64,000 nt of DNA, from NCBI RefSeq assembly GCF_002878395.1, contig NC_061111.1, positions 26,776,020 through 26,840,019 on the forward strand, given 5' to 3'. The notes beneath the pieces are model-generated. The model saw only the letters and a list, made by a program, of their open reading frames with translations, had not been told where the DNA came from and did not search any database. Source of the DNA: Capsicum annuum (Eukaryota > Streptophyta > Magnoliopsida > Solanales > Solanaceae). The translations under genes and the position numbers were made by a program. This document shows, one piece after another, positions 21,142 through 63,856 of the stretch; within the stretch, counting starts at the first letter, position 1, and every line of letters begins with the position of its first letter.

Positions 21142-21190
<49 letters not shown>

Positions 21191-42170: not shown

Positions 42171-42418
42171 TAGGGGTGTTGGGTCTGTTTGGATCGGTTA
42201 TTGGTCAAAACCATAACCAAACCAACTTGGTCGGTTTTTAAATTTCAAAAATCAAACCAAACCAACACAAGAAAATAACCGTCGGTTTGGTTCTTGTCGG
42301 TTTACTTCGGTTTGGTTCTGTTTTTTCGGTTTATAACTTTAACTAATGATAAAGTTGAAATTTAAAAAAAAAAAACAAATCCAATCAAGCATAGTGTTGT
42401 GCCCTAATCTTGAAACTA
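42171..42418. mobile_element. Left half of a split hAT-like MITE
   Basis: It starts TAGGGGTGTT, the exact inverse of the end at 63848, and is flanked by CATACCAT (42163-42170) against CATACCAC at 63849-63856 (7 of 8). The interior is rich in 'ggtttggtt' and 'accaaacc'. It is interrupted after CTTGAAACTA (42409-42418). Confidence 0.85.
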
Positions 42419-42525
42419 GGGGGTTTGGGCCACAGGTGACAAAAGAGTTTTAAAATGAGATATAGGTGACACAAGTCTTAATAATTGAGTAGAGGTGACA
42501 ATTACTTCATTATGGTTTAAGAAAG
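42419..42525 (+). repeat. Left terminal inverted repeat of the giant element
   Basis: Three AGGTGACA blocks at about 42436, 42466 and 42497 are separated by about 30 bp. They pair with AGGTGTCG and TGGTGACA in the right end (63183-63235, minus strand), with the shared word AAGTCTT between them. Confidence 0.65.
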
Positions 42526-43396
42526 TTTGTAAAATTTTAAAATAACCCACAAGTTTTTAAATTTACACTTTGATTCAAATGTTAGTTAATATATAATGGG
42601 GAATGAAGGGAAAATGCGTCTTTTTCTCTCGCGTCATCCGTTGTTATTTTCTCTCTCTTCGCGATATTTGTTGTTCGTTGTTGCTGCTGCTTTATTCATC
42701 ATCTTCTGATTCATTATCATAATCTTATACTTCATTATCAACTTCATATTCTTCTTGTTGACCATTGTTTTTGTTGTTGTTGTTACCCCAATTGCTGCTC
42801 TTTGACCAAATTCTTATGTCAAATTTTATTTCGTAAATCACTTTCAACTTTGAAATTTACTTGAGAGGAGACTTTGGTAAGTCAGATTATGCTTTTTAGT
42901 TGAATCTGGGTAATTGCTAGTGTGTTGTTTTTTCAACAATAGTTTGCACGCGAACATGCATTCAATACAAGAGCAATCTGTTTAAACAGGTCCATTATCT
43001 GCGGCACCAGATAAATATTTTGTTGTAATAGTAGACTCATGTTAGATTCATGTTTAAGGGTTCAAGGTGCCCGTAATATGATTATGAATCGAATAGATGA
43101 GTATTCTGTTGCACCAGATTAGTAATTTGTTTCAACAGATAAATAATCTGTTTCATCAGATTACTAATATGTTTTGAACAGCAAAATACAGCTTCTGTCA
43201 CACACAAAACCTAACAGATAACTCATATGTTCTTGCTATTGATACTGGAATCAAATTATTCCTTAATTGTAGACGTGTCATTTGTTAAGAAATAGAAATA
43301 GACAACACGATTAAATAAGAAATAAAAAGTCAAGTGCATCAAACATAATTTTTTATAAAACAAACAAAAAAAATACATAGATAACAGAAAAAAAGC
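42526..43396. other. Left sub-terminal region of the giant element
   Basis: Non-coding DNA with a 'ttgttgttgttgttacc' run near 42770 and the first palindrome-family words ('aatctgtttcatcagatt', 'ccagatt', 'caacagataaataatctgtt') at about 42970-43150. No gene. Confidence 0.5.
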
Positions 43397-43612
43397 TTAA
43401 TTGTTATTATCATCATTATTAACATCATTATTATTTGTATGGCCAGCCGACCGATCTTTAAAGGGCAGCAATAGCGCCCTCATCAGCCTGCGGATCTCCC
43501 ACAGCATCCTTACTCTGACGGCGGCCAACTCCCAATCCAGGTAATGAACCTCCTTCTGCAGTTCCCTCATGGCGTCTCGTAAAATAGCGACATCCTACAC
43601 AGGATCAGCCAT
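43397..43612 (-). pseudogene. Small coiled-coil ORF A (unknown family) with poly-Asn tail
   Basis: Start ATG 43612 gives MADPV then TAG (43597-43595). The same frame, or a new start at ATG 43570, continues MRELQKEVHYLDWELAAVRV, RMLWEIRRLMRALLLPFKDR, SAGHTNNNDVNN and stops at TAA 43397. It is leucine/arginine-rich with heptad-like spacing, so a short coiled coil is likely. Its paralogue is at 48608-48790: both have RL(M/R)RALLLP and end in Asn repeats, and both have the same 5' region with a TATA box about 235 (A) or 65 (B) bp upstream. GC content is clearly higher than the surroundings. I do not recognise the family. Whether the 57-codon form is translated is unknown. Confidence 0.5.
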
Positions 43613-43845
43613 ATCTAAAAAACATATAAGTTGACAATACACACACGTAAATACAAAAGTAAGGAAAATAAAGAATTCGAATGTAATGTAATGTAATACA
43701 ACGTATATTTACACAAAAATCAAGAAAAAAACTTACCAGAGACAGGAAAAAGCTATCAAGTCCTTAAAGAAAAAGTAGTTGAAGGTGTAACAAGAGCGAA
43801 GAATAAATGGTCTGTAGTAGAACGAACGATTGAGTAAGGAGGGAC

Positions 43846-43858
43846 CTATTTATAGAGG
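43846..43858 (-). promoter_or_regulatory. TATA-box candidate upstream of small ORF A
   Basis: The minus strand reads CCTCTATAAATAGGTCC. The same TATA context (agggacctatttata on +) is conserved upstream of ORF B at about 48841-48855. Confidence 0.55.
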
Positions 43859-43910
43859 ATTGAACTTGAATAAGTTAGGCAAAAAATCACAACTGTTCAC
43901 CTCCATTTAT

Positions 43911-46651
43911 TGTCACGCCTCAAATCCTATTGGGGTGGACTGGCACCTGTAACCGAGGAGGCCCGGGAGAACCAGCTCATAACCTTATACTTCCAATGCA
44001 TACCTCTATGACAACCCGAAATTCGGACAGCATCATGTCACATATAAAAGGAAATAATCACCTGTATAAGCTCGAGCACACATATATATGTATATATAAT
44101 ACTTGGCTGTTGGAGCCATTACGTCTATTAACAAAACACCACCTTGACTGTACATTAGGTCTACAAAGCCTCTAGACAATACACAGAGTTTAACTAAGGT
44201 CGGGACACACCCCACCATATAACTAACTTCTATACAATACCAAAAGTGATTGGATATGACACGGAAAGCCCCGAAGCAAACTGGAGCTCACCAAAAGTAG
44301 CTGGATATCCCGGCTCCTACTTATGCAGTGTATGAGCTGAGGTACTTGTGCCTGCAGCATGAAATGCAGGTCCCCCGCGGGGGACGTCAGTACGAAATAT
44401 GTACTGAGTATGTAAAGCTGTAGATAATCACATATGATATAGGAGCTCAATAGAAATCAGAAACAAGTGAATAAATCGTAATAGGAGTGGACCACACTTA
44501 CTAGAACTTGTGACAACCTGTACATTGTATTTATTCAATCACTTTACCTTCGTTCTTATCATCTTTGTAATCATTACTGTACTGTATTGTGACCATTAGG
44601 CTGCCTCCAGTACATATTAACTGGGATCGACCCATAATAGGCTTATGCCCCTGGGATACCACCCATAAACACATAAATAGGGATTGACCCATGATAGGCT
44701 TATGCCCCTGGGATACCACCCGATAAGAAAGAATTTTCATCACTTAGTTCAATTAATCTTTGAGATTATTATTTCGGTTGCCACTACATTTTTCATACTT
44801 TGAAACAATGATACATCAATAAGAGACATATAAATAGACCATCAATGCAATAACAATGAAGTAAGAACTCATTGGCACATCAATGAAGTATTTTGGAGTC
44901 ATCAATGCCATAACAATGAAGTAGGAACTTATTGGTAAATCAATGAAACGTTTTGGAGTCATTAATAGCACATGGATCTTGTTTGAGTAACCGGATACCT
45001 TCTGACATTCATTAGTGCAATAAACATGTAAGATTTGGAAAACAAGTAAGTATTGGAATGTCTTGACATCTTGTAGGGTGGAAACAAGTTCATTGGTAAC
45101 GTAGGACATCATACAAAACTATTATGGATCACATGTTACTGAATAACTTTGCAAATTTTCTTAATAGAACAATTGTTTACTTTCATGGCAAAGATATGGT
45201 ATAGAGTATGCTTTACATACCTGACTGTCAACCTTGAATACTAGTCCCAAATGGACTTCCCGTTTTTTCGGATTACTTATCTACAATGAACATATATAGC
45301 AATCTAGTATTAGCAACCAAATGTCACAATTTAATTATTTGAATTCACCAAATTAGTGGTTAAGTAGTAAGCCTTAATTACACCATAAAGGGTGTCACTT
45401 TAACCCTCTTATACTCCAATTACATTCACATGCCATGCATATTCATACAACATCCTCTAATATCAAGTTTGGATTCATTTATCCTTCCAACCAATCCATT
45501 AAACCAAATTGAGCCATAGACATAAATAATCATCAATTCAATAGTATATCACCATATCCACCTTCCAAAACTCAATTACCATATTCACCTTCCATAATTC
45601 AATACAACCAAACCATGCAAAATAGTCCATAACCCTATTTCCATCACCTTTCAATAACAACCAATACATATAATCCTCTATCACACATATACATATGGAA
45701 AATAACAAAGGCAAACAATATTCATACCTTAGAATTCACCTCTTGATTATGCAATCCTGTTTGCACAAATAATAGGTGCCGTTCGAAGCTCTCGAGATGA
45801 CAAACGCAGTTATCGGATTACTTTAGAATTTCTACGGTTGAATCAAAAGTAATTTAAAGGTCAAATTTGGCTAGGGTTTGTTCTTCCTCAATGATTGATG
45901 ATGAAAATGAATTTTTGAACACATATACATGTATATATACACATATTCCCATCCATAATATAATAGAAAATGACCAAAATGCCTTTAAAATTTAAATAAT
46001 GTCAAATCTGTCCTTTGGTGGACTGTTTTGATAAGCTAAAGTTGATCGACCATAACTCTTTGCTCCGATATTGGATTTGGGTGAAATTAGTATCGTTGGA
46101 AGGATAATTCAAAGGGATTTCATTTCATATAAATTTGGCCACCCAGTTCGTCCTGTACAAGGAGTTATGGTCGTTTGAAGTTGACCCTAAAAATCTGTTT
46201 TGATAGGCTGAAGTAAAACGAGTATAAATCCTTACTCAAACATTAGATTTGGATGAAACCAATTTCACTAGAAATAAGACTCAAAGATCTTTCTTTTCAT
46301 AGGTCGCAGCTCTCCCAGTTCATTATATTAAGGGAGTTATGATCTTTCGAAGTTGACCTAAAAATTTGGCTGGCCTCAGTAGTTTGTGTGCAGGAAATTT
46401 TCCTGCACATTTACTATTCCCAAATATCCCGGCCACCGTTTTATAATTTTGAACGTTCTCGATTATATCCGAAACCTATTCATTTTTTGGAAATCTTTAT
46501 ATCATTGGAAAGCTTATTCAATAACCTTCGCATGGAACCATCGACGGGCATATTCCGGTATAAATAAAATAAAAAAAATAATTCCATATAAATAAGACCA
46601 ATACACATACTTGAATACGTCAATACATGTACTTGAATACGGGGTGTTATA
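43911..46651 (-). mobile_element. Solo LTR, 2741 bp, inserted in a tandem unit
   Basis: A TTTAT target duplication (43906-43910 and 46652-46656) flanks TGTCACG...GGGGTGTTATA; on the minus strand it reads TATAACACCCCGTATTC...GAGGCGTGACA. The empty site is visible in the neighbouring tandem unit as 'tctccatttattaatgacat' at about 47010. Internal tandem repeats: about 75 bp ('taggcttatgcccctgggat') at 44635-44720 and about 64 bp ('aataacaatgaagtaagaac') at 44840-44965. ORFs inside are repeats. No pol is present. Confidence 0.87.
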
Positions 46652-47263
46652 TTTATTAATGACATTCTTGATTACTATAAAAAGTTATGACTTAATTAAA
46701 TTAATTAATATTATAATAAGTCATGACTTTTCAGCTTTATTGTTATTAATAATTAGTTCTTTCTAGAACCGTTTTTTTACACTATTTTGGACAATAGATA
46801 ATATATCTGTTGCATCAGATAAATCATCTGTTACAACAGATATATTATGATTTGCAACAAATAGATAACCTGTTGCATCAGATAATATATATGTTGCAAC
46901 ATATAATATATATATATATATTTAAAAATATATTATCTTCATGACATCTAAATTTTCTGACTTTATAATTATATAAATTAATAAAGCAGATTTAAAGGCA
47001 CAACTGTTCATCTCCATTTATTAATGACATTCTTGATTACTGTAAAAAGTTATGACTTAATTAAATTAATCAATATTATGATAGGTCATGACTTTTCAGC
47101 TTTATTATTATTAATAATTAGTTCTTTCCAGGAATCATTTTTTTACACTGACTTGGACAACAGATAATATATCTGTTGCATCAGATAAATCATCTATTAC
47201 AACAGATATATCATGATTTGCAACAAATAGATAACCTGTTGCATAGATAATATATCTGTTGCA

Positions 47264-47302
<39 letters not shown>

Positions 47303-47402
47303 NNNNNNNNNNNNNNNNNNNNNNNNNNNNNNNNNNNNNNNNNNNNNNNNNNNNNNNNNNNNNNNNNNNNNNNNNNNNNNNNNNNNNNNNNNNNNNNNNN
47401 NN
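47303..47402. other. Assembly gap of 100 N
   Basis: Lies in a (TA)n tract of a tandem unit; true length unknown. Confidence 0.99.
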
Positions 47403-47870
47403 TAAAAAAAATATATTATCTTCATGACATCCAAATTTTTTGACTTTTTAATTATATAAATTAATAAAGCAGATTTAAAGGCACAACTGCTCACCTCCAT
47501 TTATTAATGGCATTCTTGATTACTATAAAAAGTTATGATTTAATTAAATTAATAAATATTATGATAGGTCATGACTTTTCAGCTTGAAGCTTAGTTTTAT
47601 AATTATTAAAATAATTAGTTCTTTCCAGCAACCGTTTACTTTTTTACACTGAGTTGCACAACAGATTATATATCTGTTGCATCAGATAAATCATCTATTA
47701 CAATAGATATATCATCCGTTGCAACAAATAGTTCAACTGTTGCATCAGATAATATATCTGTTGCAACATATAATATATATATATATATATATATTTTAAA
47801 AAAATTATCTTCATGACATCCAAATTTTCTGACTTTCTAATTATATAAATTAATAAAAAAGATTTAAAAA

Positions 47871-48607
47871 CAAAAATATTTCTGGTGAGTTTTTTACGGT
47901 TTAAATTGTGTTTATCATTCATTTCCTTATTCTTTTCTGTGAAAAGAAATGACTTAATTAAATCAAGCTGGTGGTGACTTAATCTTTCCGTTTCTTTAAT
48001 AACTATTTTTATTAATTGAGTTATGGCAACAAATTGTATATCTGTTGCATCAGATAACCCATCTGTTTCAACAGATATACTATCTGTTGCTATAAATCGA
48101 CCATCTGTTTAAGGAGCTTTTTTGATTTCTTCTAACTGATTCATAACTCGCAAGAGATGAGGAATTTGATGCATCACAAGCGTTTTTTGTTTTTGTTTGT
48201 TTGTTGAATGTGTTTAGACAAAAGTCACAGTCACAACTATTCATTAACTTTTTTCTTAAAAATCATATCATCATATATATATATATATCTTAATTAAATT
48301 AATCCAATGTTGTGACTTTTTTTAAAATTAAATAATCTTTTTTTTACGATTATAATATCAGTTAGTTCCTTATTATTTATTAACGAACCATTTTTAGGAT
48401 AATTTCTCATCATGACCTCATCCCTAACGCCAACCGCCGACATGTTTTGAATAGGGAATAAATAGAATGATAATTAAATATTGAATAAGAATTAAAAATT
48501 TAAAATCGACCAAACCAAATATATACATGGATTTTTTTGAATCCCTTATAGGTAGATCGGATATAAAAAAGGGAAATACATACGCTAAAAGAAAGAAAAA
48601 ACATAAT
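47871..48607. other. Non-coding, with palindrome-family words
   Basis: 'tatctgttgcatcagataac' and 'atctgtttcaacagatatac' occur at 48030-48085; the rest is AT-rich. No gene. Confidence 0.5.
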
Positions 48608-48790
48608 CTAATTATTATTATTATTATTACTATTATTATTGTAAACCTGACAATTTTCATTCGGCAGCAGCAGGGCCCTCCTCAGCCTTGCTCAAAAGTC
48701 GGCCAAATCCCTCTGGAGTTCATCAAACTGCCTTTGAAATTCCTGCAAGGACTCGATATGAAACTTCTTGTACAAATCTAGATCTGACAT
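48608..48790 (-). pseudogene. Small coiled-coil ORF B, paralogue of ORF A
   Basis: ATG 48790 gives MSDLDLYKKFHIESLQEFQR then QFDELQRDLADF, TGA (48694-48692), ARLRRALLLPNENCQVYNNN, SNNNNN and TAG 48608. Like ORF A it is a Gln/Leu/Arg-rich heptad-like stretch followed by ALLLP and an Asn run encoded by (AAT)n. One in-frame TGA stands where ORF A has sense. The TATA context is about 65 bp upstream. Family unknown; function not assigned. Confidence 0.5.
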
Positions 48791-48846
48791 ATTAGTATTG
48801 TAAGTATAGTAGAATGAACGAGAGTGAGTGAGGAGTCCAGAGGGAC

Positions 48847-48856
48847 CTATTTATAA
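48847..48856 (-). promoter_or_regulatory. TATA-box candidate upstream of small ORF B
   Basis: TTTATAAATAGGTCC on the minus strand, shared with ORF A. Confidence 0.5.
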
Positions 48857-49124
48857 AATGATTGAGAATTGGAAGGGACTGGATTTAGTCAAATAAAAAG
48901 CCACGACTGTTCATATCCCTTAAAAGAAAAAATTACACAAATCCCATATTTAAGACACTATATTACACAATATTCCTTAATATTTTAAAAAATTACATAA
49001 AATCCCAAATTCATATTTACTAGTGATACATATGCTATATGTATCACTACTTAACATATGTATCACAATTCGAAATTCCAGGATAAAATATAATTAGCAA
49101 ACTATCCGGGATTTAATGCAATAT

Positions 49125-50190
49125 TGCTGAAACTATCTGAGATTTATGTGTTGTGTGTGTTACTTAAATAATACTGGTGACTTTATTAATAAGTAAATTA
49201 GAAAAAAAATAGATCTAAATACAACATTTTATCTTTTTGTTGTATTTTTGAAAGATAAAGATTGATAATCTGTTGCAAAATATATTCCACCTGTCAGATA
49301 ACTTACAATATATGGACAATCTGTTGCAACAGATGGATATATCAGTTTGCTTTTCCTTTAGCTGTGGCGTCTATTGCAACTTGCTAGTCATCTGTTTATT
49401 CAATTTCATCGAGAGCAATCTATTTTTCTAAACACTTCTTGGCCAAATTCAATTTTTGCTCTTGGATNNNNNNNNNNNNNNNNNNNNNNNNNNNNNNNNN
49501 NNNNNNNNNNNNNNNNNNNNNNNNNNNNNNNNNNNNNNNNNNNNNNNNNNNNNNNNNNNNNNNNNNNAAAAGCAAACTGATATATCCATCTGTTGCAACA
49601 GATGGATATATCAGTTTGCTTTTCCTTTAGCTGTGGCGTCTATTGCAACTTGCTAGTCATCTGTTTATTCAATTTCATCGAGAGCAATCTATTTTTCTAA
49701 ACACTTCTTGGCCAAATTCAATTTTTGCTCTTGGATTACTTTTCTTTTTTTCTTTGCATCCTTCAACCAAACTAAATTTTTGCTATTGGATTAAGGGCAA
49801 AAATTAAATTTGGAGGCCAGCTTGAAGGATGCAAAGAAAAAAAAGAAGCAGTCCAAGAGCAAAAATTGAGTTTGGCCAAGAAGTGTTTAGAAAAATCTAT
49901 TGCTCTCAATGAAATTGAATAAACAGATGATTAGCAAGTTGCAACAGATGCCACAGCTGATGGAAAAGTAAACTGATACATACATCTGTTGTAATAGATT
50001 GTCCATATGTTGTAAGTTATCTGACAGGTGGAATATATTTTGCAACAGATTACTAATCTGTTTCTTTCAGAAATACAACAAAAAGATAAAATATTGTATT
50101 TAGATATATTTTTTTAATTTATATATTAATAAAGTCACCAGTTTTATTTAAGTAACACACACAACACATAAATCCCGGATAGTTTGCGTC
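49125..50190. repeat. Long inverted repeat (foldback) with arms of about 350-390 bp
   Basis: The left arm (49125-49467) and right arm (about 49810-50190) are reverse complements. Left, 'ttatgtgttgtgtgtgttac' matches right 'gtaacacacacaacacataa'; left, 'gataacttacaatatatgga' matches right 'tccatatgttgtaagttatc'; left, 'aaacacttcttggccaaatt' matches right 'gtttggccaagaagtgttta'. The centre (49750-49830) repeats 'gcatccttcaa' inverted. The stretch 49568-49740 after the N gap is probably an assembly duplicate of the left arm. Confidence 0.85.
49468..49567. other. Assembly gap of 100 N with duplicated flanks
   Basis: The 142 bp before the gap (from 'gatggatatatcagtttgc' at 49331) recur after it at 49601-49735, ending in the same 'ttgctcttggat'. 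The contig on the right starts in a 56-bp perfect palindrome (49568-49623). Confidence 0.97.
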
Positions 50191-50568
50191 AGATGTGGAG
50201 TCTGTTGTGTCAGATATGGAGTCTGATGCAACAGATATGGAGTCTGTTGGAATACATAGCAGCCTTGCTGGTGGTTTGATTTGTTCCATCAGTTGCTTCG
50301 TCTGTTGCAACATCAGCAATATCATAAACTACAAACAACAAATAAAAAACATTAACAACAAAGAAAACAACAACATTTGTTCCAACAACATCATCAACTA
50401 CAAAGAAGCATACATCCTATGTTCCAACACCATCAACAATAAGGGACGGACCCACATGGAGTCCTCCGGGTGCGCGAGCACAGACTGAACTCGTATCGAA
50501 CTTTATATATGTATGTGGAAATAAAGAAAAAAACATATATAATCTAATCAGTGAGTAACCATAGTAAG
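50191..50568. other. Gene-free; palindrome words and (CAACA)n-like DNA
   Basis: 'gatatggagtctgttg' is repeated three times at 50195-50245, followed by 'aacaacaacat'-rich sequence (50330-50440). The 97-aa ORF here (50195-50488) is Asn-rich repeat translation. Confidence 0.5.
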
Positions 50569-50670
50569 AGTTATTTGGTTAGCCTAGTTGTTGTTTATAG
50601 GTTCTTAAGGCTATTTATTTCTTTTGGTCTTAAGTTCAATTCCCACTCAGCACATATTTTTTAAAATTTT
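50569..50670 (+). mobile_element. Short tRNA-derived SINE-like element
   Basis: The A box TAGCCTAGTTG (50580-50590) fits TRGYNNARNNG exactly. The B box AGTTCAATTCC (50633-50643) differs from GGTTCRANNCC at one position. Text 'cccactcagcac' then an A/T-rich tail follows. It could instead be a decayed tRNA gene, but there is no acceptor-stem pairing that I can see. Confidence 0.5.
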
Positions 50671-51344
50671 GGTAACCAACTCTTCTCTTCTTATTCACTT
50701 TATACTTTTTATTTTTTTTCTCCCTTACTCCTTGTGTTGATTGTTAGGACTCCACTATTTTTAAGCTAAGAAGCACCCACTGTCTAAACCACACCACACC
50801 ACAAGTTTCAACAATGCCAAACCCACCAACAACACCACACCACAAGTTCCAACAATTTCAGCCCCACCAACAACATCAATAACAGCATCAACAACAAAGA
50901 AACAAACAAAATACATAAAAAAAATAATACTGCCAACAAAGCTTTTAAACTTCTCTACAGATAACTTTTTTTCGCATCTTATAATAAAAATTCTCGGTAT
51001 GTTTATTCAACAATTAAAAGTTCCTTCAAATTTTTTAAATAAATATGATATGGGAAAATGGTAATTAAATAAACAAAAAGATGTAAATAAAGTTGCAAGA
51101 AGAAGACGAGAATGAAAGAGAAATAGTGAATCATATCATACAATGTCAAAAGGGGGTCAAAACAGTAATTTCAGTTGAGGAATATAAGATATGGATATCG
51201 ATCGGTTTAGATTCGAACAAAAATTTTTGAGAAAGAGGAGAGAAAAAAAAGACCATGATAACCCTAAAGAGGATAGAAAGAAAAAAGATAGAGATTTAGG
51301 GCTGAAGGAGAGGACGGAAGAGATAAGATAATTCTAATTTCTAG
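50671..51344. other. No gene seen
   Basis: Repetitive 'caccacaagtt.caacaat.cca' phrases (50780-50900) and purine-rich DNA at 51210-51330. No coding evidence. Confidence 0.45.
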
Positions 51345-51500
51345 ATGTACTACCCTTAATATCACATGACTAAACAAAGTGTATTTATTCAAATTTATAT
51401 TTACAAAGCATAATTAATAAGGCTAATTTGATAGTAAAATAAACCCCTAATTAATATTTTCTTGATGGGAGTGCCAAGTCAATTTGAAAAGGAAGAAGTA
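51345..51500. repeat. Copy of the Stowaway-family interior without the inner MITE
   Basis: It aligns with 22573-22660 plus 22904-22966 ('tactacccttaatatcacat', 'tttatatttacaaagcataat', 'gggagtgccaagtcaa') and serves as the empty site for 22659-22903. Confidence 0.7.
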
Positions 51501-51699
51501 TTAGGGGTTTCAATATTCATTAATTAATATTCACTAATAATTTGAGGGGCACGAGGAAGAAAATGGGTGACATTGAAAAGACAGGACAAGACTACTCAAT
51601 GAGGTTTTTGAGTTATCCAAGAAACATTTTTTACCGCCTTTAGTAGTACTACTACTTTATCTACTCGGACAGTAGCTTGCTTTAAAATTAAAAGAAAAC

Positions 51700-51980
51700 A
51701 AAAAGATTTTCAAACAGATATATCGTCTGTTGCAACAGATTTAGATATCTGTTTGAGAAATCCCAACAGCTCAGTCATCTGTGACAACAGATGGAAATGT
51801 CATTTGATAACTAAATCAGAAACGTCATCTGTTACAACAGATATCAATATCTGTTTGAAATTTTTCAACACCTCAGTCATCCGTCATAACAGATACAAAT
51901 GTCTATTTGATAATTAAATAAGAAATGTCATCTGTTGCAATAGATATTGTTATCTATTTGAAATTCTCCAATAGCTCAGT
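51700..51980. repeat. Tandem palindrome cluster
   Basis: Three units contain 'atcgtctgttgcaacagat', 'atatctgtttgagaaatccc' and 'aacagctcagtcatctgt', variants about 100 bp apart. Confidence 0.75.
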
Positions 51981-51999
51981 TATTTGTTCAAACGGATTT

Positions 52000-53530
52000 C
52001 ATTGCAATTGATTTAGGATGAACTAGGGATGAAAGAATGAGCTCCTCATTAACGTAATGTTAAGATTAATAATAGTACCTACATCGATCCAGGTGGAATG
52101 AGGGATGAATGAATGAGCACACAGGGTCAATTACAGATCCAATTGAGTCATTGTATTTACATGGTATTAGTATTGCATTTATCCTGACCCGAGTCGTCGA
52201 TTGATCACTCTGAGTTGAAATGTGTTCTCATTAACTTAATAATAAGATTAATAATAGTACCTACATTGATCTAGGTGGAATTAGGGATGGATGAATGAGC
52301 ACAAAGGGTCAACTACAACTTCAATTGAGTTTTTTGGCAATTGCATGATGAGACGGTACTGCATTCCTCTCGATAAGTGTCATCGATTGATCACACTGAG
52401 ACGAACCAATTCTTACTACCTCGTATGTTCAACTAATACCTTAATTGAATAATCTGGGACTAGGGGTGAGTTATCATAGGTCAACTACAACTTTAATTGA
52501 GTCTTTTGGCAAATGCATGATGAGACGGGACTACGTTCTTCCCGACAAGAGTTGTCGATCGAATACTCTGAGCCAAACCAATTCTTACTACCTCATATAT
52601 CCAAATATTAACTTAATTGATTAATCTAGGACTAGGGGTAGGTTCTCATAATGTCAACTATAATAGATGACAACGCCTATTTGATAATTTACAATAGATG
52701 GGTAATCTATTGCAATATATGACTTAATTCATTTGATAATTTACAACAGATGGGTAATCTGTTGCAGCAGATGACCTAACCTGTTTGATAGTTTACAACA
52801 GATGTGTAATATGTTGCAACAGATTACATAATCTGTTTGATTTGATCCACCAGAAAAAACATCTATTGCAACAAGTTGAGCATTTGTTTATATATAATTC
52901 AATTGAGTTCGTATGTTAGACTAATACCTTAATTGAATATGAGTTCTCATAGGGCCAACTACAACTTCAATTGAGTCTTTTGACAACTGCATGATGAAAC
53001 GGTACTGCGTTCCTCTCGACCAGAGTCGGCGATCGATCACTCTGAGCCAAACCGATTCTTACTACCTCATATGTTAGACTAATACCTTAATTGATTAATC
53101 TAGGACTAGGGTACTAATACCTTGATTAAATAATCTGGGACTAGGAGTGAGTTCTCATAGGGTAAACTATCGATTAATTTAGGACTAGGGGTGAGTTCTC
53201 ATAGGGTCAGCCACAATAGATGGCAGCGCCTATTTGATAATTTACAACATATGGATAATCTGTTGCGACATATGAAAATCCATTTGATAATTTACAACAG
53301 ATGGATAATCTGTCACAATAGATGACTTAATCTGTTTGATAATTTACATCAGATTCGTAATCTGTTGTTACCTAATCTGATTGATAATTTACAACAGATG
53401 AGAAGTCTGACGCAATATGTTGAACATTTATTTTTTACAATTTCAATTGAGTTCATATGTTAGACTCCTAAATTGATTAATGTAGGACCAGGGGTGAGTT
53501 TTCACAGGGTCACTTCCTAGAGTACGCGAT
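52000..53530. repeat. Tandem array with 'gatcactctgagccaaacc' units
   Basis: 'cgattgatcactctgag', 'aattcttactacctcatatg', 'attaatctaggactaggggt' and 'gagttctcatagggtcaact' recur about five times between 52000 and 53530, interspersed with blocks of 'gataatttacaacagatggg' palindrome words. No ORF. Confidence 0.85.
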
Positions 53531-54334
53531 CAACTACAACTTCAATTGTTTTTATATGATTATAAAAATTACGCATATATTTTATGATTTTAAAAATAAT
53601 TAAGATCATTTCGGACCAAAATTAACATTTTCAAAACTACTTGTCATTCTTTTCCAAAATACAAATCAACCTATACAAAATGTTTTATCATTTCAAATCT
53701 CGAGGTCTGGCTCTTTCTCTCTCAATCTCACTCAACAATACAGTACATACTACAACTACTCAACAAATTTGCTCAACCCTCCACAATAGATCACTTTTTT
53801 TCTCATTTTCGACCACATAGGTGTTATTTTCAACATCATTCTTGTTTGTATCAGTCGTTTTATTTGTCTTCATAGGCAACAGAGTTCGAGAAGAGCTCTA
53901 TATTTTTTTTTAAAATAAGGGATTTTAAGTTAATGATGAAAAATAAAACTTTTATTTGTATTATCTTCGAGAATGGGTTTACAATTTTGAATTTTGATGG
54001 TAAAATCGTAGGAAGAACTCGAGAAATCCCTAGTTTCCATCGTAGTGTTCTGTTGACTGTCGTGGTATAGTTGGATGGCGTTGGTGGTGGTAGTGGTGGT
54101 GGTGGTTGTGGTGTTTGTGGTCGTTGTGGTGGCACCGGTGGTGGCATTAGTTGGTGATGTTTGTGGTGGTGTCGGTATTCATGGTGTTTGTTTGTTTGTT
54201 GGCATTGGTTGGTGGTGTTTGTGATGGTGGCTGTTGGTGTGTCAGTATTCGTGGTGTTTGTAATGTATTTTTAAATATCTATGCATACATCAACTGTAAT
54301 GTAATTTTTGTTTTTCTTTGTCCGTAAGTAAAAC
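53531..54334. other. Upstream region of the DUF1985-Ulp1 gene, with a GGT-rich stretch
   Basis: Pyrimidine-rich 'ctctttctctctcaatctca' at about 53710 may be a leader. From 54070 to 54260 the plus strand is (ggtggt/gtt)-rich. The Pro-rich minus-strand ORF there (53860-54147) is a product of that simple repeat. Confidence 0.5.
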
Positions 54335-54788
54335 ATGTCTCCCAAACGAAAAGAAAGTGAAAGTGGATCAACGTCTGACCACTACAAAAAAAAGATATAG
54401 TACAGAGAGATTCGGAGGAGCTTTCTGAACAATCTCAGTCAGGAAAAAGTGAAGATGAGGAGAGATATGAAAACAACGTTGAGGGAGGTGGACAAGGGTC
54501 CGTAGATAGTGATGAAGAAAATGAAAGTGAGAAAGAGGAGGAATTGGAGAGTCAGAAAGAGAAAGAGGACAACATTATACGGCTTTCCTTGGGCTTTCAT
54601 GGTAAAATTAATCACTAATTTTACTCATCCATTAATTTATATTGAATATAGTTATTATGATTTTTTTTTGCTTGCTTCCTGTTTACACTTTTTGGGCTTG
54701 GGCATTTGATGCCATTCCTCCCCTCCGAAAGCAGTTAATGGATTACCCGGATGAGGTTTTTCATCCAAGGATGTTTAGGTAGTTGGCT

Positions 54789-54888
54789 NNNNNNNNNNNN
54801 NNNNNNNNNNNNNNNNNNNNNNNNNNNNNNNNNNNNNNNNNNNNNNNNNNNNNNNNNNNNNNNNNNNNNNNNNNNNNNNNNNNNNNNN
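54789..54888. other. Assembly gap of 100 N with duplicated flanks
   Basis: About 140 bp at 54647-54788 (from 'atatagttattatga' to 'ggtagttggct') recur at 54889-55028 with one difference (gtagttgg/gtggttgg). The exon is therefore counted once, on the right. Confidence 0.97.
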
Positions 54889-55106
54889 ATATAGTTATTA
54901 TGATTTTTTTTTGCTTGCTTCCTGTTTACACTTTTTGGGCTTGGGCATTTGATGCCATTCCTCCCCTCCGAAAGCAGTTAATGGATTACCCGGATGAGGT
55001 TTTTCATCCAAGGATGTTTAGGTGGTTGGCTGCAAAGAGCAACACCAATATTAAGGAGGTTGATCTCTTTAACCCTCCGGATGATGCAGTACGTCTTCTT
55101 CAAGTA

Positions 55107-55578
55107 AAATAATTCTACTCAAAGATAATAAAGATATTGAACAGATGTTATATCTGGTGCATGAGATGTTATATTTGATGCACCAAATGGGACATCTGTT
55201 GCGACGGGGTATATCTTGCATCAAATTACCCATCTGTGGCTTTGGTTCTCTGAACCCAACTCCTAAAAGATTAACCATCTACTGTAAATTATGCAACAGA
55301 TGTTTAATCTAATAATATATCGTTTATCTGTTGCAACATACAAATCATCTATTGCATAACAGATTACCCGTCTTGTGCAGCTGTTGCAACAGATGATTGA
55401 TATTTTACATCAGATTATCCATGTGTTGCTCTGTTTCCATGAACCAGACTCAAACAGATTTTAACCATATACTGCAAACTATGTAACAGATGGGTCTTTT
55501 TTTAAAAATGTAGCCCAACTGTGAAAATTATTATATTATATGAGTTAAATGCATCTGTCTTTTTTTTCTTTTTTATAG
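55107..55578 (+). repeat. Intron of the DUF1985-Ulp1 gene, filled with palindrome words
   Basis: The region between GT (55089) and the AG at 55577-55578 holds about ten ATCTGTTGCA/TGCAACAGAT words and a duplicated phrase 'ctgaacccaactc' / 'gaaccagactc'. The second intron (about 56331-56585) is built the same way. Confidence 0.7.
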
Positions 55579-57299
55579 GTTGTTCATCCATGGATCGTGC
55601 CTACTGAGGAGGAGTCGGTGATGACTTCTTATATTACTCTTGGTCATGTTGATACTATTGCAGACCCAACGGTGGAGTTAATAAAGAAGGAATTGGCTGG
55701 AGCAACAGCCATAAGAAGAGCAGTTAGGCAAGGTCAACCTAATGTTGAGGCTCTTCATGACCAACCTTTTACTAAGACAGATTTGGGTGCTTCTTCTGGT
55801 GGAGTTGTTGGTGTTGGTGGAAGGCATGCTGATGCTGCTACCAAAGAATAAATATGTTTTAAAACACCCTTTTTGTCCCTTACACAGGTCCCTCTCACCT
55901 CTCTTCACCCTCGTGTTTTCGTTGCGAATGAAATGAGTTCAAGGACAGATAGGATAAACTTTTACAAAAGTAGAGGCTATCTCTAAAGCTATCGAGGAAT
56001 TCAAATTCAAGAGGTGTGTCATACTATCCAAGAAGGTGAGGGAGCCACACACGCCTATAGCGTTGGTTAGGAGAAAGAAAAGAACAATTAGAGACGTACT
56101 CTCCGCTCGGAAATCAAAAGAAATTGTAATTTCTCCATCTCCAAAAACTATTGAAGTTTAGGGGCCAGTCAAGAAGGTGGACATATATGCAGAACTTGGC
56201 GCCGAAGAAAAGAGGGATCTGTGACAGGCCAAGAATGCCAAGTCAGGTGCACCAGATTACCCCAGGTCTCCCTTTCCCCCCCAAGACTTCCAGACTATGA
56301 CTGATATGCGTATGTCATACGAGGACAAGGCAAGTTTACTTTTCCTAACTTAGCCCTTCTAATCTACCCATACGCAACAGATATCATATTTGTTGCAACA
56401 ACTGGGTATACTGGTGCAACTGGTTATGGTTCTGTTGCAACTTATTATCCATCTGTTGCATAAGTTGCGTTGGATTATTGATTCAGAGAACCCTATGCAA
56501 CAGATGGACCATCCGTTGCATCTTTAAAATTACTAACCTATTTAAAAATTGACTTTTTTAAAAATTGACTTCTTATCTCACAACATGTTGACATAATTCT
56601 CTACCTCATGAGAAAAAGGCAATTAACGTATCAGGAAGCTTATGACACTGCTGATAGGATAATGGACCTCGACTTCTGCAAGAAGCTCAAGGATAGGTAC
56701 GATTAACTCAATGGAGAGGCGTCATCCCTTGGCGTGGGAATTGATTTCCTAGTTCCTACGTTGGTCTTGGATGAAGAAGAAATGTTAAGATATATTAGAG
56801 GGGCAGGACAAATTCACACGGTAAGAGCTGGACCGAGGCAAAAAGGATTCTTGCAGTCATTTGCGTGAACGGCATGCATTATCGGGCTGTTGAAATACTA
56901 CTCGAGGAGGGAAAGATCAATGTTTATGACTCCAACGTACCTCTCGTCTACGATTTTGATCTTTTTCTCCTCGTGGAGCCACTGATGGTGCTGTTTCCCA
57001 TTTTGTTGAGGGAGAGTAAACTAATGAATCATTTGCGAAAGGAAGTGTTGATGAAGAAATCATGGGATTTTGAAGGTCGAAACAGGTGAATGATCTTTCC
57101 AAAAGATGATGCCGCTAAAGCGAGCGGCTTGCACGCTCTTGCACACATCAAATATTTGCTGATCGGCATAGAAATGGTCGAGCCAACGACTTTTCTGTGC
57201 GACAATGCTGTGGAAAACCTACAAGAGGTCCGAGCTTATGGGGTACTAACTAGACGCTTGAAGCCTGTGTATATAGAAGAGCCTGTGAAATAGAAATTT

Positions 57300-57692
57300 T
57301 TAATTTCAAGTCACCCTTCACTTTATTACATGTATATGTAGTGGCAATAATTTTTTTCTGATGAAAGTAGAGTTTTTTATAATGCAATAGATTAGATTGT
57401 CAATTTGTTGCAACAGTGGAAAGACCTGTTTGAATAATCTAATAATCTAATAATCTAAGTCTAATCTGTTGCAACAGTGGGAAGACTTGTTTGATAATTT
57501 CTATGAATAATCTAATAATCTAAGTCTAATTTGTTGCAACAGTGGAAAGACCTGTTTGATAATTTCCACAGATGACCTAAATTTTACAACATATGCCTAA
57601 ATCTTTTTGATATTTTCCAATAGTTACGCTTGAATATCTATGTGCTCGTCGACAACAAACCAGTAGCAAATACACACACCACCATGAAAATT
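57300..57692. repeat. Palindrome cluster between convergent genes
   Basis: Three direct copies of 'ttgttgcaacagtgg.aagac' then 'ctgtttgataatttcc' lie at 57405-57560. A short duplication, 'caacaaaccagtagcaaata' / 'caccaaaccagtagcaata', follows at about 57650 and 57728. Confidence 0.7.
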
Positions 57693-58102
57693 TCAGCAAT
57701 TAGGCTTCAATATCCATGTGCCCAACAACACCAAACCAGTAGCAATAACGACAACAATGTAGTATCTTCTTGCTCGATTTTATTTCTCTTCAAAAGCCTT
57801 GACTTTGTTCAACAAAACTCAGATTACACGATTTGCTTGTGAAGGGTGTCGTTCTTCATACCAATCAAAGTAATCGCATCCACCCAATTTCTATAAAAAA
57901 GAAAACACAATTACAAAATAATTATAAGTCAATAATTAATCAATTAATTAAATAAAAAAATATTACCCTTTGAAATCTTACAAGTAAAAAATCTATGACC
58001 CGAATTTTATTGAGTCCAAGAAGTCTTTAACAGAGCTTTATGCCCGCACTTACAATATCAAAAATCTTTATCATAAAAAATAGTGGAAGATGCGCTCGAC
58101 AT
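57693..58102 (-). pseudogene. GRF-type zinc finger protein with C-terminal membrane segment, decayed
   Basis: ATG 58102 gives MSSASSTIFYDKDF, a stop, then YCKCGHKALLKTSWTQ, a stop, NSGHRFFTCKISK. A short intron (57966-57891, GTAATA...AG) follows. Exon 2 reads KLGGCDYFDWYEERHPSQAN, RVI, a stop, LLNKVKAFEEK, a stop, RARRYYIVVVIATGLVLLGT, WILKPNC* (57693). CxCG..a.l.TSWT..N.GHRFF.C...GC.YFDWY is the GRF zinc-finger signature. The basic linker plus a roughly 18-residue hydrophobic end is typical of small plant GRF proteins with a tail anchor. There are four in-frame stops, and the splice join needs a 1-nt correction, so it is a pseudogene. It lies tail-to-tail with the DUF1985-Ulp1 gene and downstream of the minus-strand DUF1985 gene. 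GRF fingers bind single-stranded nucleic acid in some proteins; no role is inferred here. Confidence 0.78.
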
Positions 58103-58195
58103 TGTCAAGGTCAGTTGGAAAAAATGAAAGTAATAATTTGAAGAATTTGGATAGATAAAAGAAGATGACGATGAAGAAGAAGATTTGGAAATTTA

Positions 58196-58295
58196 NNNNN
58201 NNNNNNNNNNNNNNNNNNNNNNNNNNNNNNNNNNNNNNNNNNNNNNNNNNNNNNNNNNNNNNNNNNNNNNNNNNNNNNNNNNNNNNNNNNNNNNN
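58196..58295. other. Assembly gap of 100 N
   Basis: No duplicated flank was found here. The right side begins with two direct copies of 'gatgcctattttatttta' 40 bp apart. Confidence 0.98.
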
Positions 58296-58439
58296 CACAT
58301 TTGATGCCTATTTTATTTTACGTCTGTAAAATGAACATGTCTACTTGATGCCTATTTTATTTTAGGTGTTTGAATTGAACACCGTCGATGGGTTGCGCCT
58401 TTTTTATTTCAATTCACTTTAACCTTTTTAAACATAGTG

Positions 58440-59250
58440 GTAATTTTTTATGTCCAACAAAAGTTAAATTTTATAATGCAACAGATTCTCTATCCGTTGT
58501 AACAGTTATCCTACCTTTTCTGACATATAGTTTATCTGTTGCAATAGGTTGGTCATCTGTTGCATTATCTCGATATTTTTATCTAAAGTTCATCTGTTGC
58601 AACAGCGAGAAGACATGTTTGATAAATTCCAACAGATAACCTACCTATTACAACATATGTATAAATCTGTTCGATTATTCTAATAGATTAGTTATCTATT
58701 GCAACAGATAAAGTCCATATGTAGTAATATATGTCTAAATCTATTTTTTTTACAATAGATGTGTCATCTATTGCATTATCTTGATGTTTTTATCTAAATT
58801 ACATCTGTTGCAACAGTGGAAAGACCTGTTTGATAAATTCCAACAGATCACCAACTTGTTGCAACATATGTCTAAATCTATTTGAATTTTCCAATAGATG
58901 TGTCGTCTATTGCAACAGATACATTATCTGTTGCAATATTTGAATCTAGTATTCCTTTTCAATTAATAAGTTCAAATCTAAGGAATAAATAAAATTCGTA
59001 GATAAAATAAAACAAATTGAAGCCTTCATAAATTAGCTGAAACAAGTCAACGAATAAATAAAATGTAAAAAAAATGTTATGGGTACAGCTCTCAACAAAT
59101 ACATCAACAACAATTTAAGTATACTGCCAAGGATTGCTTTGACAGGCTCAAGCTATAAAGATCTACTCAGTATGGACAAGTTGTTCTTTATCTGGTGCTA
59201 TGGAATTCGGCTTTGCTCATCGTGGATCTTCATTGTTGCTTGCGTACGAT
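58440..59250. repeat. Palindrome-rich non-coding DNA
   Basis: Alternating 'catctgttgcaacag.g.aaga' and 'catgtttgataaattccaac' units at 58490-58930; the remainder shows no gene. Confidence 0.7.
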
Positions 59251-61570
59251 TTCTGCGTTTTTTGTTCTCCGTATTTCCATTAAAAGAGTAGCATATTTTC
59301 AATGTTGTTCAGCAGTAGCTTCTTCTAAATCCACCTGAAAAGCCAAAATTGGTCAATGCTAATCACAGAGATACAACAAAACAGAAAAGGATAACTCATC
59401 TCTTCTAGCAAATCAAACAGGTCTTCCTCCCATTTTAAATTATCCCAAATATATTATATTTCTGTTGCAACATTGAATCAACTATTGGAACAAATTTCTA
59501 CATGAGGAAGACCCTGTGTGATAATTTCCAACGGATGGCAACATATGAATCATCTGTTGCAGCAGATAGGTCAAGAGCTGTTTGATTTGCTAAAACAAAA
59601 GAGACATATGTTGCACCAGATAAAGTATCAAGTGCAATAGGTTAGTCAACTGTTGCAACAGATGTATATATCTGTTTGATAATTTTTAGCAGATGTGTCA
59701 TCTGTTGAAACAGATATGTGTCTGTTTGTTTTGTCAGTTAAAAGACATATAATATATTCACCCTTTTCAGCTCGTGCTGCTCTCCTTTGGATATTGTATT
59801 TGCTTTTTTGGATGCCTAATAATGCCCTGAAAATCACTGCCCTTCTTCTCTTAGCCCTAATCTCTAATGGAGCGGATGGAAATAAAATCCTCTTTGATGG
59901 AATGAGACCTCTCTTAGATGTCAATTCCTTTACAGAAGCAGTTAATGCATTAATAGCATTAATCATTACATCATGTTTCGCCCTGCAGTCTTGACATCTA
60001 CATGCAGAACATCGCTGGGAGAGGCAAAATCTATATAATCAGTATGATCATACTCATAATGGTTTGCTTTAAATACTGTAAGACAAGCATCATTAGCACC
60101 AATAGCAGCACCACTACCACCACCAACAGCTCCATCAACAACAACAAGCCCACCTTCCAAAATTATTTTTCTTGTAATGGTTGTTGGTTCAAACAATTTC
60201 ATTTTTATTTTGTCGATGACCTTAGAGTTCCATAAAGTTTGCATAGACCGTAAAGTAAGAAAAAATGGCATCTTCAACTCTCGATTGATCGAAACTAGCG
60301 ACGGATGCACGTTCTAACATAAATCATTACATATATTATAATGATGATTAGATCATTCAAAAAAAATCAATTAAAAGAAAAAATTAATTATAATTATGAT
60401 TACTGCATCCTTCGGGGGGTTGAAGAGATCAAGAAATTTTACATTTTTATGAGCTTTGGCCGATAACCATCTCAAGATTCTTGGACAGAAAACTCCTTCC
60501 TGGTAGAACACTTGTTGTCTCAAATAAGGAATGACTTCAAACGTCCAAGCCTATAAAATAACGCCAATAAATCAAAATCATTATTGAGCAAAAAAAATGA
60601 ATGATATCATAATAGAAGAAAGAAACATTTACCATGAAAGCCCATGGGAAGCCATATAAGTTAACTGTCTTTGGCGCTAACGGAGTCAATAAATATTTGA
60701 CAGTCATTTTGAGGCTTTCATACCCCATGGATAGCTGTTAAACGCCTCAAGATCCTCGGAGAGCTTTATTAAATCGAGGCTTATGTTGTTGTTAACGTCT
60801 CTCGCGCAAAGAATATTATGTACAAACCAAACCAAGCACAATGACTGCTTGTGCTTCTTTGAAAGTCCTTTACCTTTCAACACTTCTATCAAATTTTTAT
60901 TTGAAGCTTGGACCAACAATGGACACCAGGTCATCATGATCACACGACTTGTCTTTGCCTTTTTTGGGTATGCGGGGCGCTTTTTTTGGGTTAGAATAGG
61001 TATAACTTGAGAAGGAAGATAATATTTTAGTCCAGTAACTATGAAAAACTCCTTCTAACCAAAACAAACAGGAATGCCACAGTAATTTATCCACACCTCA
61101 TCCATCTTATCTTTATTTTCATACATAAACCTACACTTGAGAAGTTCATATACCATTTTCATTTGGAAACAAGCATTGTTGTCCTCTGACAAATCAAGAT
61201 ATTCCCCAAAGCAGCTGTCCCTGAAATAAGCATCTAATTTTTGTTTTTGAAGTATTTTTCTAAAGGCGTTGAAATATTTTCCCACGGCTGACTTAACCAC
61301 GAAATCATCTGTTAAATCTGCGGCACCATCACACTGCATTCTCACAGGATAACGATCAATGCTGAAGGCTTTGACCAGCTCTTCGATGGAAGGGCTATTA
61401 GCATCTGCCTCATCTCTTTTGAAATATTTCTCCTCCCTGTGTTCATCATATTCTGCTCTTGATTGAGATAACGCTTGTAAAGCAAGCTTATGGAGTGGTG
61501 GATGTAGCCTAGCTTCTTCACTTGTTCCTTGACTTGGACTTGATTCGATTTCTGTTCTTTTGGGAACCAT
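59250..61570 (-). pseudogene. DUF1985-family gene, minus strand, nearly full 5' part
   Basis: ATG 61570 ([15 protein letters not shown]) is preceded by an AG acceptor and starts a 172-codon open stretch: [87 protein letters not shown] and [13 protein letters not shown]. After a frameshift: PKKAPRIPKKGKDKSCDHDD, LVSIVGPSFK. After another: LIEVLKGKGLSKKHKQSLCL, NNNISLDLIKLSEDLEAFN and YESLKMTVKYLLTPLAPKT, NLYGFPWAFM, then GT. Exon 60550-60404 is a clean 49-codon phase-0 exon (AWTFEVIPYLRQQ...LDLFNPPKDA). Exon from about 60299: NVHPSLVSINRELKMPFFLT...ITRKIILEGGLVVVDG, a frameshift near 60020, then CQDCRAKHDVMINAINALTA, SVKELTSKRGLIPSKR, EIRAKRRRAVIFRALLG. A short exon at about 59335 reads VDLEEATAEQH. 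I found no protease core, so the 3' part is lost or moved. Confidence 0.78.
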
Positions 61571-61599
61571 ATTATCTAAAATTAACATGAACATAAAAT

Positions 61600-62460
61600 A
61601 ATATATTATTGTTGATTAATGCATCGTTAAAAAAGGATAACAGTAAATCAAATAAGAAAAATAGTAAAATAACAGTTGCAACAGATTACCGATCTGTTGC
61701 ACCAGGTAGTATATCTGTTGCAGCATATAACCAAACTATTGCAGCGGATGAGTAATTTGTTGCAACAATACAAAACATACCACTCATCTTTTAAGACAGA
61801 TGAATGATCTGTTCAACAGATCACACAACTGTTGTGACATCATCTATTGCAACATATAAGTGATCTGTTGGAACAGTTAAATAATTCGTAGCAACGACTG
61901 AGTAATCTATTGTGATAATACAAAATATATCGCTCATTTGTTGAGAAAGATGAATGGTCTGTGCAACAGGTCACACATCTATTACAACACGTGGGTGATC
62001 TATTAGAACAGTTATCAAAAATCAATATTGTTTAGATTTCTTCCAACATAGGATCTTCTATCGCGATAGATGAATGATCAGTTGGAAAAATCAAGTCTTG
62101 GACTTTTCCTGTAGGAAGAGTTGGTAGGATTTTATCCAACAGGAGGTTCATCTCTTGTATCAGATCATTAATCTGATGGTTCTTCCATTGTACCAGATGG
62201 TTAATTAGTTGCATCAGATTTTTTATCCGAAGCTTAATCTATTGCAACATATGGTAAAGCTGTTGCATCAGATTATTAATCTGTTGCATCAGAATTGTAA
62301 TCTGATGGTTCCTCTAGTGCATTAGATGGTTGATTTGTTGCATCATATGATGAATCTTTTGCATCAGATGGTAATATGTTGCACCAGATGAGTGATCTAT
62401 CGGAGAAAACAATAACACGATTTTGTTAAATAAAAAACAGCAATTTCACCATTTTTATGA
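61600..62460 (-). repeat. 5' intron / leader region of the minus DUF1985 gene with palindrome words
   Basis: About 25 words of the ATCTGTTGCA..AGAT family occur here. A probable 5' exon (62595-62800) ends with 'accctaatttctg' before GTATGT (minus strand), and an AG lies just before ATG 61570, so this looks like a 5' UTR intron of about 1 kb. Confidence 0.55.
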
Positions 62461-62827
62461 AGAACATAACAAATCAAGCCAAATTGTCCTTTTGTTTTTA
62501 TAAACACAAACAATTAAAATCAAACTTCAAAAAAATGCAACAAATAATAAAATATCATAATTCACTTCGAAAAGAGAAGAGAAGAGAAGACATACCAGAA
62601 ATTAGGGTTTTATTCAGACCGCATTTCAAATTAGTGCAACAAATATTGAAATTGTTAACCAATACTATAAGAGAAGTTGGCTCAAGTTCCTCATTTTCTT
62701 CAAAACTAAAAAAGCCATAAATTTTTACTTGTGAAAGAAGAAAAGGACCAATGAAGAATTTGAAGCTGTTATGACCGGAGAGCAAGGCTGTCACGTCGAT
62801 TAAAGTCGGAAAGGAACTGGAATCCTA

Positions 62828-62838
62828 ACTATTTATAG
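62828..62838 (-). promoter_or_regulatory. TATA-box candidate of the minus DUF1985 gene
   Basis: CTATAAATAGT on the minus strand, about 35 bp upstream of the probable 5' UTR exon and about 400 bp inside the right terminal repeat. It resembles the TATA contexts of small ORFs A and B. Confidence 0.5.
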
Positions 62839-62859
62839 TCAGATATTGAAGTCCCCGAG

Positions 62860-63070
62860 GATTGAAATAAGAAATTTGTAGAACAGTTGGTTGGGAGAGA
62901 GTTGAGAGAAGCTGTCGAGAGAGGGATGAAAGACAAGTTGATTGAATTGAAGAGGAGAACTCAAAGCCCAACTATTTGTCGTCGGAGGTTGAAGGGAGAA
63001 ATTTTGTAGAACTGTTGGTTGGGAGAAGCTGTCGAGAGAGAGGAGAGAGTGGTTGATTTGGATTGAAGAG
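62860..63070. repeat. Direct duplication near the right end
   Basis: 'gtagaac.gttggttgggaga' followed by 'agaagctgtcgagagag' and 'ttgattgaattgaagagg' occurs at about 62877-62965 and again at 63008-63070. Confidence 0.75.
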
Positions 63071-63129
63071 GGTGTGGGTTGGATTAATTTGTATTTTTGA
63101 AAAGATTAGAAAGTTTTGAAAATATTAAT

Positions 63130-63240
63130 CAAGTACACAATTAACTTGATCAAGTTTCCTAATAATGTTTGACCCTATCTGTTGGTCAATGTCACCAATC
63201 CTTCATTCAAGACTTAAACGACACCTATCCTTCAATTTCT
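63130..63240 (-). repeat. Right terminal inverted repeat of the giant element
   Basis: On the minus strand it contains GATAGGTGTCG, AAGTCTTGAATGA and TGGTGACATTGAC, matching the left end. CTTGAAACTA follows at 63241-63250. Confidence 0.65.
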
Positions 63241-63250
63241 CTTGAAACTA

Positions 63251-63848: not shown

Positions 63849-63856
63849 CATACCAC

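Follow-up and report, generated by a model that had tools for sequence, protein, structure and literature searches.

A repeated 18-kb Mutator-like element in pepper with decayed DUF1985/Ulp1 genes and palindromic motif arrays that may act in anti-silencing

The DNA that we analyzed, here called the window, is a stretch of 64,000 nucleotides from Capsicum annuum (contig NC_061111.1, positions 26,776,020 to 26,840,019). It contains a large transposable element, which we identify with hardly any residual doubt as one copy of a repeated, ~18-kb non-autonomous Mutator-like element (MULE) family that inserted into a single miniature inverted-repeat transposable element (MITE) and thereby created a 9-bp target-site duplication. 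The element carries remnants of two genes and is filled with arrays of a short palindromic motif. These arrays had been missed by the original prediction, a note made from the bare sequence, and we think that they are the most important feature of the locus. Taking all the evidence together, we judge it probable that this is a non-autonomous MULE family equipped with anti-silencing sites similar to those of VANDAL and KIU elements.

The element, its copies, and its genes

The insertion and its surroundings are composed of the following features:

42163..42418, plus strand: MITE fragment on the left of the insertion, comprising its CATACCA flank and the left duplication
42410..42418: left 9-bp target-site duplication, TTGAAACTA
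42419..63241, plus strand: non-autonomous Mutator-like element, 20,823 bp including a nested solo long terminal repeat (LTR) and four N gaps; five other complete copies have the same two ends
42419..42500, plus strand: left terminal region with three GGTGAC blocks ~30 bp apart
43911..46651: nested LTR-like insert (solo LTR), with a 5-bp duplication TTTAT at 43906-43910 and 46652-46656; no motif sites
63185..63241, minus strand: right terminal region with two inverted GGTGWC blocks ~30 bp apart
63242..63250: right 9-bp target-site duplication, TTGAAACTA
63251..63855, plus strand: MITE fragment on the right of the insertion, comprising its CATACCA flank

We searched the window's own genome (a 3.21-Gb assembly, with the window on contig C1) using a 301-bp query from the left end, which gave 3,037 first-look candidates. 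The 40 scored matches include the window's own, leaving 39 other places, and 38 of the 40 start at query base 108-122, which is at or just outside 42419. Six places were fetched with 30 kb each, and blast rows below 250 bits were dropped. Five of them hold complete copies with identical first and last base and lengths of 18,046, 17,749, 17,684, 23,430, and 19,961 bp, while the sixth, c4a, enters 3 kb of N after ~2.3 kb and was left out of the full-length counts. The longest two complete copies, c4b and c3b, both contain nested inserts. The three copies without a large insert (17,684-18,046 bp) bear out the prediction of a large non-autonomous MULE-like unit that measures ~18 kb once the nested LTR is subtracted, and five further complete copies with both ends in common supply the second loci by which that prediction was to be judged. 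Its size and structure thus stand, but the element belongs to a repeated family instead of being an isolated unit. Divergence is 6.8-8.0% in all 15 pairs among the six complete copies (the window copy and the five others), as if they had spread in one burst. At a substitution rate near 7e-9 per site per year, a difference of about 7% would correspond to ~5 million years. The solo LTR of the window copy is not found at the corresponding place in the six fetched copies. Another structure inside the element is a 91% inverted repeat (49130-49466 versus 50185-49852), and inverted matches are also seen in the five other complete copies.

The boundaries could be refined with the help of these copies. 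As predicted, a 10-bp direct repeat, CTTGAAACTA, is present at 42409-42418 and 63241-63250. It is the sole pair in the window, where 0.21 matches are expected and two or more were obtained in 1 of 100 shuffles. The preceding T is also common to both sides, so that the repeat printed in the window measures 11 bp. The flanks match over exactly 9 bp in copies c1, c12, and c4b and over 10 bp in c3a and c3b. A duplication of 9 bp is therefore what 6 of the 6 complete copies have in common, in line with the MULE hallmark of 8-11 bp, mostly 9. This places the right boundary at 63241 instead of 63240, and a 10-bp duplication was rejected; the bases beyond nine in the window repeat match the TC at the 3' end of the element by coincidence. 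The left flanks of 28 of the 40 places (27 distinct, because L005 and L028 are one insertion site; the other 12 places are not among the fetched flanks) give the consensus target WAGTWACTW, which is a palindrome from which individual flanks differ. Information content reaches 0.33-1.32 bits per position in the nine duplicated positions and at most 0.29 at eleven positions outside.

The predicted AGGTG(A/T)C blocks just inside the ends were found on opposite strands, with AGGTGAC on the plus strand at 42434, 42464, and 42493, and with AGGTGTC at 63220 and GGTGACA at 63190 on the minus strand. The GGTGWC blocks occupy like offsets in both ends. Alignment of the two whole termini stays at background (5.9% of random pairs attain its soft score of 17, and 9.7% its stricter score of 25), and we accordingly do not regard the ends as classic terminal inverted repeats (TIRs). 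The element appears instead to have weak, degenerate inverted ends, which are believable because they recur in other copies.

The two flanks, joined at the duplication, gave a 168-bp query with 740 first-look candidates. All of the 40 scored places match this query at 89-96% identity, every match running across the junction; 39 matches cover the query from base 3 or earlier to base 167 or later, and one covers 27-168. Five fetched empty sites hold the target once. These sites are paralogous MITE places in the same genome, and because they span the junction, we can conclude that one MITE copy was split by one insertion, as had been proposed. An assembly chimera, or two adjacent elements, might be considered in view of the four 100-N assembly gaps inside the window copy (47303, 49468, 54789, and 58196). 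The edges of the gaps at 49468-49567 and 54789-54888 (49319-49736 and 54646-55031) are near-identical, with 149 bp at 100% and 143 bp at 99.3%, and they look like unmerged contig overlaps, not biological repeats. However, the five other complete copies are colinear with the window copy end to end and have their gaps elsewhere or none. This agreement, which includes the gap-free c3b, confirms how the pieces are ordered and oriented. The colinear copies, the common 9-bp duplications, and the empty sites spanning the junction led us to reject this explanation, which has next to no probability left.

Pieces of two genes, A and B, are recognizable inside the element:

60728..61570, minus strand: gene A, exon for the N-terminus and DUF1985, interrupted in the window copy by a single in-frame stop
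59780..60525, minus strand: gene A, further exon pieces (reading frames)
59184..59279, minus strand: gene A, C-terminal tail remnant
54889..55851, plus strand: gene B, middle exon pieces (reading frames); the DUF1985 exon is deleted in the window copy
56799..57230, plus strand: gene B, Peptidase_C48 (Ulp1) domain, in which an in-frame stop is followed by ASG

A six-frame Pfam scan covered the window copy except for 47301-47403 (an N gap) and 57251-58299; a domain cut at the seams between pieces could escape it. It detected DUF1985 on the minus strand with 75-76.5 bits (cut-off 35.1) and, on the plus strand, the decayed Peptidase_C48 domain of gene B with 22.7-24.8 bits (cut-off 20.7). The remaining matches are under their cut-offs (IIGP with 22.7 bits versus 24, PMD with 12.2 versus 34.9, plus weaker ones) and are regarded as chance. 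Gene A starts at 61570 on the minus strand. With Capsicum proteins as queries, tblastn located its N-terminal half and the short C-terminal tail; between this tail and the preceding exons, Pfam gave no C48 core on the minus strand. We assigned 59780..60525 to the same protein type by a presumed likeness to Capsicum proteins, and the ASG of gene B sits where we take the catalytic DCG to be expected. Among the 120 listed of 232 relatives of the DUF1985 protein, all named ones are from Capsicum, the best being 84% identical. An AlphaFold model of a related DUF1985 protein has a mean predicted local distance difference test score of 53 and was not used.

The copies preserve these genes to different degrees. 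Over 282 residues of P0001, gene A is without a stop in c4b and also in c12, but the c12 match lies in two frames and the first ATG is missing. The window copy and c3a have one stop each, c1 has two and c3b one, the latter two with matches in more than one frame. Among the six complete copies, c4b alone keeps the gene B exon for DUF1985 (L022:7863-8666, element positions 11134-11937), with two stops and ~40% identity to the gene A type. This exon implies that the element carried two old, distinct DUF1985 genes. The whole gene cassette that had been predicted can thus be specified as two decayed convergent DUF1985/Ulp1 genes; the ancestral unit therefore had two such genes in this arrangement.

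Motif arrays inside the element and in its relatives

The interior of the element is crowded with a few short words. GTTGCAACA occurs 44 times inside versus 0 times outside, ATCTGTTGC 42 versus 0, and CAACAGAT 62 versus 1. When we allowed at most one mismatch, TGCAACAGAT was found at 123 sites inside the element and at 3 outside, while 20 Markov sequences of the element gave a mean of 2.65 and a largest value of 4. The spacing of same-strand TGCAACAGAT sites peaks at 21 bp (28 pairs), 42 bp (17), and 63 bp (9). Alignment of 212 de-duplicated sites gives the 16-bp palindrome ATCTGTTGCAACAGAT every 21 bp, which corresponds to two helix turns. The first sites are met 685 bp inside the element, and from there they run through introns and intergenic DNA along its length. 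None of the 123 sites falls into the 2,570 bp of window exons, where ~15 would be expected by length; because the sites are clustered, this expectation is not a probability. The motif clusters of the window copy, with their numbers of sites and groups, are:

43104..43155: 4 sites, one cluster
46805..48091: 29 sites, four groups
49268..50050: 6 sites, two groups
51725..53399: 17 sites, three groups
55152..56520: 15 sites, two groups; between gene B exon pieces
57383..59715: 26 sites, three groups; inside the two genes and between them
61677..62389: 20 sites, two groups; upstream of gene A

For all six complete copies, the motif boundary coincides with the element boundary. The density amounts to 5.1-6.8 sites per kb in these copies versus 0-0.2 per kb in the flanks, 21 bp is the commonest same-strand spacing in each of them, and the three nested inserts of three copies (9,023 bp in total) have no site at all.

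Exact motif pairs 21 bp apart are present genome-wide in 4,701 + 4,691 = 9,392 cases, while the reversed pattern gave 0 + 0. Among the pair places listed, which are the first on C1, five have the spacer GACCAACCTAT of the studied copies and many have spacers absent there, so that related families probably share the motif. One such relative, L052, is 70-74% identical and starts at the same first base. It contains 26 motif sites, of which nine form a single array spaced by 20-21 bp, and no site is present past its terminus. Since L052 was picked by the motif, its motif is no independent evidence; its kinship is. In its first 1.2 kb, motif columns are kept at 30/35, 21/25, and 23/26 in three comparisons versus 76-79% elsewhere, a small excess that we did not count. 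No Pfam domain was found in 8 kb of L052.

Anti-silencing and its alternatives

Sequence-specific anti-silencing by transposons has been described in Arabidopsis (PMC5735166). There, DUF1985 is part of the VANC proteins, one of which, VANC21, binds to a short motif in the non-coding DNA of VANDAL21. VANC leads to loss of methylation over its element, and the motifs build up and evolve by way of tandem repeats (PMC5735166). A similar action on their own group is attributed to VANC genes that have an Ulp1 domain (KIU; PMC13317346). The pepper element resembles VANDAL elements (VANDAL21/Hiun and VANDAL6; PMC5735166) by its DUF1985 gene, its MULE-type mobility, and its dense short motifs in introns and intergenic DNA, often in tandem arrays. 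It differs in its size of ~18 kb versus several kb and in the motif, which is TGCAACAGAT within a palindrome every 21 bp, compared to YAGTATTAY or AGTTGTMC in VANDAL (PMC5735166). Because VANA, which VANDAL elements carry, was not found in the scanned stretches of the pepper copy, we propose that the element may work like a VANDAL, not that it is one. Kaonashi (KI/KIU) non-TIR MULEs share with it the Ulp1 protease domain and, as it appears, weak or missing TIRs (PMC13317346, PMC2528002). The pepper element differs in that it has a convergent pair of DUF1985/Ulp1 genes, of which neither is intact in the window copy, and in that a mudrA-like gene was not found. The groups MULE-Solanaceae_1/_2 and MULE-Capsicum are alike in host family, and a 9-bp duplication without TIRs is given for the two Solanaceae groups, but these groups are defined by a transposase (PMC6446971), and none was found in the scanned stretches of the pepper element. 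MULEs with Ulp1 have been reported in Arabidopsis, melon, rice, and grapevine (PMC2528002, PMC13317346). In the open-licence literature we found no paper linking Capsicum with Ulp1 MULEs and, in the part of it that was sampled, none linking Capsicum with VANDAL-type motif arrays, which is no proof of absence.

We compared by eye the 150 best DUF1985 and the 150 best MULE places of the pepper genome (of 18,147 and 7,406 candidates) and obtained at least six pairs within 20 kb, four convergent and two divergent, where 0.28 are expected by chance. DUF1985 thus accompanies MULE transposases in pepper; the motif is not present with all of them.

By analogy with VANC, we give even odds to anti-silencing by a DUF1985 protein that would target the arrays now or would have done so in the past. 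Slightly more doubtful is the full scenario of a Solanaceae type of anti-silencing, in which a DUF1985/Ulp1 protein would recognize the 16-bp palindrome every 21 bp, and in which a transposase-less family would have spread by means of these sites, kept as cis "unsilence me" tags in place of its coding capacity. An undamaged relative would supply, or would have supplied, the DUF1985 protein, which would bind the motif arrays and lift silencing from every copy that bears them. The unsilenced ends would then be open to a transposase provided in trans by undamaged relatives. Copies could have spread in this way in one burst, after which the genes decayed and the cis arrays stayed. If the pepper arrays are indeed DUF1985 targets, anti-silencing would reach a large, repeat-rich crop genome and would use a different code (palindromic, every two helical turns) than in Arabidopsis. 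This could also explain how an 18-kb element without a transposase came to be so abundant. With motif, gene type, and thousands of arrays at hand, the reading is directly testable.

A number of observations speak against anti-silencing by a DUF1985 protein. The scan of the window copy revealed no transposase, be it of the mudrA-type (MULE) or VANA, in the scanned stretches, which is allowed for a non-autonomous member, and the 3.4-kb insert of c3b is also without a recognizable transposase. We found no autonomous partner having both this motif and a transposase. Both genes are broken in the window copy, and the ratio of nonsynonymous to synonymous substitution rates (dN/dS) of gene A, determined for the first 190 codons, is 0.56-1.08 in 15 pairs; being near neutral and without a sign of selection, it indicates that these copies drift. 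The likeness to VANC and KIU is one of domain make-up (DUF1985/Ulp1). VANC21 sites are reported as arrayed in one orientation, whereas the pepper sites are palindromic. The left flank of L052 does not fit WAGTWACTW. Finally, a second DUF1985+MULE family, comprising L047, L048, and L049 (~91-94% alike; L050 shares ~1.1 kb with it), is essentially without the motif, with 0, 1, and 0 sites, while L050 has 2 and another place, L051, has 0. A family-specific motif sought in L047-L049 did not rise above the controls. TAGACC is raised there, with 15 and 14 per 10 kb in L047 and L048 versus 19 in ~93 kb, and is not claimed as a motif because the top-8-mer scores of several among 12 control pieces are just as high or higher. 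Near the DUF1985 gene of this family we also noted a 19-bp palindromic tandem array, ATAGACCACGGGTCTACGA (L047:9407-9462 and L048:9251-9287), a possible second motif that is likewise not above controls.

Several of these points would fit a Pack-MULE-like origin, which we consider unlikely. The element would then be a non-autonomous MULE with captured Ulp1-type gene pieces, its genes would have no role in the life cycle, and the arrays would be neutral minisatellites made by slippage. Missing transposase, broken genes, near-neutral dN/dS, and the presence of tandem arrays are all compatible with this. But the window copy contains at least 17 separate clusters with one 10-bp core and the 21-bp spacing, which slippage at one place does not give, and in a relative of 70-74% identity the same core is combined with other spacers. 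In addition, DUF1985 genes adjoin MULE transposases elsewhere in the genome, and the genes of the element are of this transposon-associated type. The element is also far larger than Pack-MULEs usually are. What it has in common with Pack-MULEs, as they are named in PMC13317346, is that it is a gene-carrying MULE without a transposase.

Less probable still is that the arrays are cis sites for the transposase or for a host factor (in replication, pairing, or through small RNAs) and not for the DUF1985 protein. Non-autonomous copies do depend on sites for a transposase, the motif is missing from the second DUF1985 family, and the link between motif and DUF1985 consists of co-occurrence and analogy only. 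Transposase sites are, however, expected near the ends, while the motif begins well inside and runs through the whole element. VANC sites are described as distributed in this way, in introns and in intergenic DNA (PMC5735166).

MITE sequences next to other elements

The original prediction had proposed to align the two MITE halves with the family of an element at 20781-21363. The resulting alignments are weak (scores 35 and 53, given without a null), and this comparison could not decide the matter because the element looks like a different, though probably related, family; as the MITE's own family it was rejected. A stretch of 172 bp at 85% identity to the MITE that harbors the insertion lies at L048:9828-10000, 3' of a copy of the second DUF1985+MULE family on C1. 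The MITE may therefore be a repeated landing site. At 20065-22572 of the window, we observed three copies of a ~490-740-bp sequence that are 86-91% identical, and two of them flank the MITE-like element at 20781-21363.

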